64,000 bases of DNA from Actinomycetota bacterium (GTDB lineage: Bacteria > Actinomycetota > Acidimicrobiia > Acidimicrobiales > Acidimicrobilacustridaceae): NCBI GenBank assembly GCA_016185305.1, contig JACPNV010000005.1, positions 29,328-93,327 on the forward strand, given 5' to 3'. A program made the position numbers and the translations under genes. Positions 33,211-62,055 of this stretch are shown here, one piece after another. The notes beneath the pieces were generated by a model. The model searched no databases and was not told the origin of the DNA. It saw only the letters and a program-made list of their open reading frames with translations. Position 1 is the stretch's first letter. Each line of letters begins with the position of its first letter.

Positions 33211-33387
33211 CTTCGGGATCGCCAGATCATCGTGCCCGACCCGCATGTCCCACGCCTGGGTGTGACACCTTGATCTGGCCCCACTTTGGCCAGTTGTGAT
33301 GGTCTGAAGTGGCCCGCGTCCTGGCCGGAAGAACTGACCCAGGTGGCGCCGGCGGCGATTGGCGTGCCCGAGATCGCGAGATGGTAA

Positions 33388-33524
33388 GCGCTTGCGGCCA
33401 ACGGATCGACAACTTGTTGTGCCTGTGCCCGATCCGTGAAACCGTGATGTCACCCCGCTCGGAACACTGCCCCGCAGGGGCCACCGATCACGAGCGAGCG
33501 AAGCGAGTCTCGGGAGCGGAGTAG
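33388..33524. mobile_element. MITE-like or solo derivative: terminal blocks A (33388-33419) and B (33465-33524) without coding cargo
   Basis: A matches 60141-60172 with 1 mismatch in 32; B matches 61888-61949 closely. Confidence 0.6.
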
Positions 33525-59011: not shown

Positions 59012-60130
59012 ATGGCGCGTGCGGCGTCGAAGAAGTCTCCCGACCTCCGGCAGGACGAGCTGCCCGGTCTGCGCGCGGCCGCGCCGGCCTCCCGGTCGCG
59101 CCACAGAGACGTCCGCCTGACCCACTGGGCGACCGAGGCCGGCAACGCGGCGAAGTGGGGCCGCACGGGTCTCCTCGAGTTGCTCGGTGGCGTCGCTTCC
59201 GAGCCGACCGGGGTCCTGGCCGGACTCGATCCCTACGACGACGCCGGGGTGGTGCGGCTGACCGACGAACTCGCACTCGTGTCGACCGCGACACTGCTCC
59301 CGCCGCTGGTCGACGATCCCGCCGCGTTCGGCGCGGTCGCCGCGGCCCACGCGTGCAGCAACGTCTTCGCCATGGGGGGCCGGGTCGTGTCCGCGCTCCA
59401 CCTCGCCGCGTTTCCAGACGACCTTCCCGCCCCATCGATCAGAGCGATGTTCAAGGCGGCGGCTGCGGTCGTGGCCGAGGCGGGCGGCGCGGTGGTCGGC
59501 GGCCAGACCATCCGGGCTGACGAACCGGTCTTCGGTCTGGCGGTGCAAGGCCTCGTTCATCCCGATCACGTCCTCGTCAGGGCGGGCGCTCGCCCCGGCG
59601 ACGTCGTCGTGCTGTCCAAGCCCATCGGCACCGGCATCGTCCTCGCTGGCGGCAGCGACGACGAGAAGGCGCGGGTTGTCGACGGCATGCGCATGCTCAA
59701 CCGCGGCGCCGCGGCGCGCCTGGCTGAAGCTGGCGCGGCCTGCCATGCCGTGACCGACGTGAGTGGCTTCGGATTGCTGGGCACGGTCTTCGAGCTGGCT
59801 GAGCGTTCCGGTGTGTGCGTGCTCATCGACGCGGAGATGGTTCCGTGCTACCGCGGCGCCAAACAGCTTGCCGCGAGCGGCGCGCGCGCGTCCGGTGCAG
59901 TCGACAACCGCTCGTCGTTCGGGCCGCTCGTGTCGATCGGTACTGATGTCGCGGGCGCGATGGAAGCTCTGGCGTTCGACCCGCAGACGTCGGGCGGCCT
60001 GCTGGCCGCGGTCGAACCAGATGACGTGGCCACCCTGGTCGGCGCCGGCTTCCGCCCGATCGGCACCGTGCGCGAGGCCGAGGTCGATGAGGAGGGCTAC
60101 GCGACCGAGTCTCTGGTGCACGTCACCTAG
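59012..60130 (+). CDS. SelD-like (selenide, water dikinase / AIR-synthase fold) protein with altered active site
   Basis: NVFAMGGRVVSALHLAAFP; VVGGQTIRADEPVFGLAVQGLVHP; VTDVSGFGLLGTVFELAE; FDPQTSGGLLAAV. Confidence 0.8.
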   Translation: MARAASKKSPDLRQDELPGLRAAAPASRSRHRDVRLTHWATEAGNAAKWGRTGLLELLGGVASEPTGVLAGLDPYDDAGVVRLTDELALVSTATLLPPLVDDPAAFGAVAAAHACSNVFAMGGRVVSALHLAAFPDDLPAPSIRAMFKAAAAVVAEAGGAVVGGQTIRADEPVFGLAVQGLVHPDHVLVRAGARPGDVVVLSKPIGTGIVLAGGSDDEKARVVDGMRMLNRGAAARLAEAGAACHAVTDVSGFGLLGTVFELAERSGVCVLIDAEMVPCYRGAKQLAASGARASGAVDNRSSFGPLVSIGTDVAGAMEALAFDPQTSGGLLAAVEPDDVATLVGAGFRPIGTVREAEVDEEGYATESLVHVT

Positions 60131-60315
60131 TAGGCGCTTGGCGCTTGCGGCCAACGGATCGACAATTTGTTGGGGATGTGGCAGGCGCCTTCCGGTGGCG
60201 CGACCGCCAGGGAGCCCGCCGGTGATGGGGAGCGCTCGGAGCGTCAGCGGAGAGTGCGTGGGGGCGCAGCCCCAGGCAACTAGGCGCTTGGGAAGAGCGA
60301 TCGACAATTTGTTGG

Positions 60316-61840
60316 CTATGCGGCGGCTGGCGTGGCGATGGCGAGGTCCTCGAAGAGTTGGTGCATGTCGATCCGTAGTTGTTCGTAGTCACGGTCGACG
60401 GCGGTCCAGGTGGACGGTTTGCGGCCGAGACGCGGGTTGCGCACACCGGCGAGGATCGGCGCGATGACGTGGTCGCGAAGGGCGAGTGTGCCGGCGATGG
60501 TGCGGGCGGATTGGTCAGGGACGTGGTAGCGGCGGGAGCGGCCTGGTTTGTCGACGAGGTGTTTGGCGCGGAGCTTGCGGAGGTCGTAGGCACCTTGGCG
60601 GACGGTGTAGTTGTGGTCGGCCCAGCCGGTGAGGGCTCGCACCTTGTCGGTGAACTCGCCCGCGGTGAAGCCGTTGGGTGACACGGCGAGGGCGAGCGCG
60701 GCCGCGAGCGTGTGGCGTGACCGGGCCTTGTTGAGGTCGATGCCGCCGATGCGGCTGGCGCCGAGCTGGGAGGGGGCGGGTAGTTCGTCGAGGATCCCGT
60801 CGGGGACGAACGCGACGTCGACGCTCGCCTTTGCTGTAGGCCTTCAACGTCAAGCGACCGAAGTGGACCTTGAAGTTGGTGAGGTCATAGGTAGGTGTCC
60901 CGATCACGGCTTCGAGTCGTGGAGGCCCGCTGGCTCGGTTTCGGTGGGGTCGGGCCTTGGCGCCGAACAGGGTGCGGACCTTCGGGACGTCGAGCCGGGA
61001 GCGTGTCCGGTCCACGATGGCTTCGAAGGTTCGCTGCATCTGCGCGCCGTTGCGGAACAAGAAGTTGCGGGAGTACTCGACCTGGTAGATCGAGTAGTCA
61101 TAGACGAAGCGGCTCGCTTCTTGATCCGCGAGATCCAACCCGAAACACAGGCAGGCGGTGTAGATCCACCGGTCGCACACCTCGCGCAGTCGCCCTGCTG
61201 TCTCGGTTTGAGACACGGTGTCTGCGATCTGCGCGAGGCGCGCTGGTTCGGGTACGACAGTAAAGCAGTTGCCCTCCTTCCCGAAGCCGACGCCGGCTCT
61301 GGTGGCCGCGGCGGCGACGTAGTCGTGGCCATTCAGGATCACCTGCGCTCCGAACGGCGGGTGACCCGACATCTTGATCGTCACGTGACCCCACGTCGGG
61401 TCCAGGATGTGGAACGAGTAATGGTTCACGTACTGCGAGGTCTTCTCGATGTTGACGATGTGACCGGCGTTTGCTCGTCTCACCTTCCACACCGTGGCCG
61501 GCGCCCGCGCCACCAGCACCAAGAACACCCCCGAGCGCACGGGACCCGCGTCGAGATGCTCCTGGGCGATGAGATGCTTGCGTTCTCCGGCCTTGCACTC
61601 GATGACCGGCACGCCGTTGGCGTTCGCCCAACCCCGGACACGGCGAGCGAACCGGCCCGCGAGGCGCATCAGGTGCGTGTTGTCCAAATCGTCGTCGTCA
61701 CCCTGCCAGCGGCGCCACCACGTCCGGAACCCGCCCGGCGAATGACCCAGCGAGAAGTACGCGTTCAACACGATCCGGTCCACGCAGTCATACGTGCCGG
61801 CCAACAGATCGCTGTAGCGAGAAGAAAGCTCGTCAGGCAT
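60316..61840 (-). pseudogene. element-encoded protein with C-terminal winged-helix region; internal deletion plus frameshift near 60820
   Basis: N-part (61840-~60826) ...PTYDLTNFKVHFGRLTLKAYSKGE; C-part in another frame ..SVDVAFVPDGILDELPAPSQLGASRIGGIDLNKARSRHTLAAALALAVSPNGFTAGEFTDKVRALTG... Confidence 0.65.
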
Positions 61841-61887
61841 CCACCGACGCTACGGCCACCGACTCGAAACTGCCCACCGGCTCGCTG

Positions 61888-61949
61888 CACTGCCCCCGAA
61901 GGGGGCCACCGATCACGAGCGAGCGAAGCGAGTCTCGGGATCGGAGTAG
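61888..61949. repeat. terminal block B with GCCCCC-GAA-GGGGGC hairpin and mirror repeat GAGCGAAGCGAG
   Basis: Matches 33465-33524; stem retained with altered length and loop (GCCCC-GCA-GGGGC). Confidence 0.8.
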
Positions 61950-62055
61950 GCGCTTGCTCGTCGACCACGAAATGGCCGATCGTGACCAGCGCACGCCGAG
62001 CCACCTCGTTCGCGCTCATGGTGCAGCGCGGCCGAGGCCACTACGGTCGGGCGCG

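Follow-up and report, generated by a model that had tools for sequence, protein, structure and literature searches.

A shortened gene-less element in an Acidimicrobiales genome, probably a non-autonomous copy of an IS-like family with hairpin ends and CTA borders

The window (the whole stretch of 64,000 nucleotides analysed here, from an Actinomycetota bacterium of the order Acidimicrobiales) contains two sites with matching terminal blocks, termed A and B: a gene-less copy at about 33 kb and, at about 60 kb, an IS-like gene-bearing element adjoined by a short gene-less element (S). The copy at 33 kb is assigned below to a second gene-less element, M, whose closest other copies lie elsewhere in the same genome. 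The features are listed with ends named in the sense of the gene.

33385–33524, minus strand (in gene sense): gene-less element, a copy of the M family by its match to M, apparently internally deleted and decayed
33388–33419, minus strand: right end of this copy (block A), ACAA-TTGTCGA-N12-AAGCGC, with the stem ACGGATCG/CGATCCGT kept
33465–33524, minus strand: left end of this copy (block B), comprising CTA, hairpin I and hairpin II, from alignment and covariation with gene-bearing relatives
60137–60283, minus strand: short gene-less element S, adjoining the gene-bearing element and owning the block A at 60141–60172 (148-nt match to the S consensus, 93%)
60281–61949, minus strand: the gene-bearing element itself, bounded by a TAG on each side when read on the plus strand, its ends matching the borders set by two Mycobacterium riyadhense copies
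60316–61840, minus strand: candidate transposase gene, defective (tblastn with the M. riyadhense protein gives two segments, each in another reading frame)
61888–61949, minus strand: left end of the gene-bearing element, comprising CTA, hairpin I and hairpin II (fold and covariation)

The array of S and the gene-bearing element starts at the TAG stop codon of a putative selD gene (selenophosphate synthase; 60128–60133), as if this had served as target.

Block A of the gene-less copy agrees with 60141–60172 in 31 of 32 positions, with C/T as the sole mismatch (55.4 bits), and its block B aligns with 61877–61956 at 86% over 81 columns (91.5 bits, E 2.7e-21), compared with a best score of 33.7 bits in 100 dinucleotide-preserving shuffles. 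Both matches had been put forward in the original prediction, together with a paired stem GCCCC-GCA-GGGGC in block B and an order and orientation of the two blocks equal to those at 60 kb, and all of these observations were reproduced. The terminal CTA at the block B end is intact (TAG at 33522–33524 on the plus strand), and the one at the block A end is mutated to TTA (33385–33387; TAA on the plus strand, from TAG). Taken whole, the left-end fold of this copy is no better than shuffles, which is consistent with decay.

The closest kin of the 33385–33524 copy is M, a gene-less element of 278 bp on contig C8 whose two ends are of the same types as those of the gene-bearing element and are ordered and oriented alike. 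The copy aligns with the first 70 and last 77 nt of M (reference C8:1-286), with approximately 137 nt of the interior absent. No significant similarity was detected between the M interior and the transposon gene, and an origin of M by plain deletion of the 60-kb gene was therefore rejected. The gene-bearing element has its own block A (from 60281), which fits the 33385–33524 copy less well, with GGGAAGAGC replacing CGGCCAACG. On this sequence comparison, the copy appears to be a shortened and decayed member of M rather than a deletion product derived directly from the gene element at 60 kb, and the earlier proposal that a short spacer had replaced the coding part of that element was abandoned.

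The M family occupies several loci (C8, C31, C91 and C93, with the 33385–33524 copy counted among the four); the first 140 nt of M recur identically at C31 and C91 in other contexts, after which the contigs end. The element S is approximately 147 bp long, hairpin-rich and likewise gene-less, with about 25 near-complete copies at 90–97% to the consensus in the same genome (for example G000:C13:107186/107331, C45:10997/11139 and C72:35748/35893) and about 10 partial copies; its units often stand head to tail, with one CTA common to neighbours. M and S appear from their sequences to be two kinds of gene-less derivatives with a shared right end. The original prediction had named frequent occurrence of block A without block B as an argument against itself, and such an excess is indeed present (about 33 places for A, about four for B, in the genome's own 3.29-Mb assembly, 72% complete), but the A-only cases are family S with the same end, most block A copies in this genome being part of S. 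A solitary truncated block B (L037:1495-1560, on G000:C5) is oriented like the S-type ends approximately 1.1 kb away and is probably the remnant of a decayed larger element. In another genome of the same phylum (G106), an independent 324-bp gene-less element carries both canonical ends (L160:869-1192).

The borders of the family were defined from two M. riyadhense copies whose flanks are unrelated, together with a 1817-bp contig of Mycobacterium sp. MFM001; these sequences align from CTACGCC to AAGCGGCTA, with a single chance base beyond; these limits place the left border at CTA|CGCC and the right border at GGCTA|. The complete layout is CTA, border, hairpin I, hairpin II, gene and ACAA-TTGTCGA-N11/12-AAGCGSCTA up to the right border, and matching ends flank the gene in Mycobacterium, Pseudonocardia, Chloroflexi and Spirochaetes. 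CTA stands at the left border of independent copies and on both sides of every well-preserved element. The two hairpins of the left end abut each other, starting at the base after CTA, and hairpin I covaries across phyla, with 89.6% of cells paired and 42 double-changed cells, compared with 14.6 in shuffles (a control that keeps the effect of relatedness) and at most 12 when the alignment was slid (a control that removes it). The right end lies inside a 15-bp stem in Mycobacterium and is enclosed by stems in M and S too, but the right-end fold of the Pseudonocardia copy does no better than shuffled sequences. The two ends are unlike in both sequence and structure and do not form terminal inverted repeats.

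The right-end pattern was found at 24 sites in the genome studied and at 6 in G001, a genome of the same genus, with further sites in Mycobacterium, Pseudonocardia, Spirochaete and Chloroflexi genomes; the reversed pattern gave 0 matches in the gene-bearing set. Across 398 genomes of the phylum, four contain the pattern and three of these four bear the gene; excluding the genome studied here, the overlap is two of three (hypergeometric p 0.0014). The reversed pattern matched three of the same 398 genomes, none with the gene, so single matches to the pattern can be due to chance.

The gene at 60316–61840 is broken by a frameshift near 60830 and lacks residues ~342–380 (tblastn against the M. 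riyadhense protein), and as it stands cannot serve as a source of enzyme in trans; no intact family gene was found in the 72%-complete assembly. Further pieces of the candidate transposase gene are scattered at L062/L063 (G000:C88), beside a gene resembling an HNH-type endonuclease. The closest relative of the 60-kb gene is a protein of an M. riyadhense plasmid (68% identity over the N-terminal part), with other relatives in Mycobacterium sp. MFM001, Pseudonocardia, Chloroflexi, Acidobacteria, Spirochaetes and Planctomycetota and partial ones in Micromonosporaceae and Frankia. Intact gene-bearing relatives are present in public genomes of M. riyadhense (L064), MFM001 (L077) and Chloroflexi (L079 and L084), and autonomous members measure approximately 1.7–1.8 kb, with CTA, two adjacent hairpins, one gene for ~550 aa and the right end. 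Distribution is patchy: the gene, counting both of its subfamilies, occurs in 10 of 398 genomes of the phylum and in none of 60 near relatives. The second subfamily (~24% identity) is represented in M. riyadhense by a gene directly upstream in the same orientation (L064:1233-2849), and reading frames upstream of the gene in Pseudonocardia (L078) and Chloroflexi (L084) end, as judged by eye, like this subfamily; the tandem is either a pair of arrayed elements or a single composite one.

The ~550-aa protein has no meaningful match in Pfam, NCBIfam, PHROGs, PADLOC or PDB. Residues invariant in 20 members spanning both subfamilies include N173-G174, W228, Q256/E258, K335/Y337/K339 and R345, with E347 conserved at 95%, and there is no HUH motif among the conserved residues. 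The arrangement K-x-Y-x-K..R-x-E resembles Rep_trans, but relationship to the Rep_trans initiators gained no support, the corresponding Pfam family (PF02486) matching no member and none of 298 genomes, that of the window included. The AlphaFold models were of low confidence (mean pLDDT 49 and 57), and Foldseek searches with them returned essentially only winged-helix proteins, with a viral library performing no better. A predicted C-terminal winged helix is the only recognisable fold, in models too weak to name a catalytic one.

Evidence for mobility comes from several sources. Two gene-bearing copies within one Mycobacterium plasmid match at 96.6%. The S element at C77 is absent from the orthologous site in G001, where both flanking genes align at about 77% and the empty site is inexact; at the C46 site, the left flank alone aligns, up to the element end, and the right flank does not stand out from shuffles. 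The search for an exact empty site yielded none. The contexts of M, the S arrays, the M. riyadhense copy pair and the gene-less copy in G106 indicate movement, as read from sequence.

We consider it likely that the 33385–33524 element is a decayed, shortened non-autonomous (MITE-like) copy of an IS-like family that transposes, guided by its hairpins, to positions 3′ of CTA, with the enzyme acting in trans. The family gene product would be the transposase, supplied to gene-less copies by an intact relative; it would recognise the folded ends of one DNA strand, cut immediately 3′ of two CTA triplets, the flanking one and the one that terminates the element itself, and join the excised element 3′ of another CTA. 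Every insertion would then end in a fresh CTA, which would give rise to head-to-tail arrays with one common CTA. The non-autonomous derivative of the original prediction accordingly survives in modified form: both ends without a gene, at several loci, and the independent G106 copy speak for it, but the block A at 60141 belongs to S and not to the gene element. M and S share with classical DDE MITEs the lack of a gene, multiple copies and ends common to a gene-bearing element; their left and right ends do not form inverted repeats, and for this reason they are not classical MITEs.

The anatomy is closest to that of IS200/IS605 elements, which lack terminal inverted repeats and have structured ends, a short fixed target beside the left end and cleavage set at the hairpin foot (PMC6006769). 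The CTA family also has structured ends without terminal inverted repeats and a short target of constant sequence 5′ of its left end, yet its ~550-aa protein has no match to Y1_Tnp (PF01797) and no conserved HUH, and its left and right border triplets are identical; despite the resemblance, it is not a member by the protein test. The observed borders would also result from a double-strand mechanism, in which the enzyme of the same family would make staggered cuts at CTA with a 3-bp target duplication of CTA, the hairpins being protein-binding sites, insulators or leader RNA. CTA on both sides of well-preserved elements and an enzyme with no recognisable HUH motif would fit this reading, but terminal inverted repeats are absent, and the ends are asymmetric with stems beginning directly at the border; we regard it as rather unlikely, if still a serious competitor to the single-strand chemistry proposed here.

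It is very improbable that A and B are intergenic repeats of a REP-like or RNA-like kind (terminators, sites for protein binding or structured RNA) that spread otherwise and resemble the gene element only secondarily. REP/BIME sequences with their TnpA_REP (RAYT) proteins form many short palindromic intergenic copies, in clusters and with possible action in trans (PMC6006769, PMC8266576), and the gene-less copies here are also short, numerous, clustered and possibly moved in trans; the many hairpin-rich S copies and the frequency of block A without block B fit such repeats. However, the copies of 140–280 bp have two distinct ends, identical ends bound the gene in other phyla, the block A motif is patchily distributed (in 4 of 61 genomes), S is missing at one orthologous site, there is no Rfam match, and the assembly of the studied genome contains no Y1_Tnp/RAYT gene. 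Least probable of all, and by our estimate barely credible, is RNA-guided insertion of the IS110/IS1111 kind, with the structured left end as a guide RNA choosing the CTA target. The non-coding region of IS110/IS1111 elements encodes a guide RNA, and their structured non-coding region, asymmetric borders and short core shared with the target resemble features of the CTA family (PMC11187229). Nothing in Pfam or NCBIfam, however, matches the family protein, IS110 families (DEDD transposase) included, and the non-coding left end is much shorter, at only ~60–130 nt. Members of IS110/IS1111 also choose differing target sites, unlike the CTA family, in which one target triplet is used by all copies across phyla.

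We tentatively suggest, at somewhat less than even confidence, that the gene-bearing relatives form a new prokaryotic transposon family, with a recombinase unlike known transposases in sequence (invariant N-G, W, Q-x-E and K-x-Y-x-K..R, and a C-terminal winged helix), hairpin ends, CTA targets, the derivatives M and S in this genome and another that arose independently elsewhere; this comparison covered curated libraries rather than ISfinder or full protein databases. Literature searches yielded no published description of such a CTA-element family. The gene-less copy alone is ordinary, and it matters as a lead to an IS-like family that spans several phyla and whose protein is missing from the curated libraries searched. 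The link to this family also accounts for S, a scattered repeat of ~147 bp that might have been catalogued as nameless intergenic sequence, and the exact ends, fixed 3-nt target and covarying terminal structure make a transposition assay, and the identification of a possibly new recombinase, easy to design.
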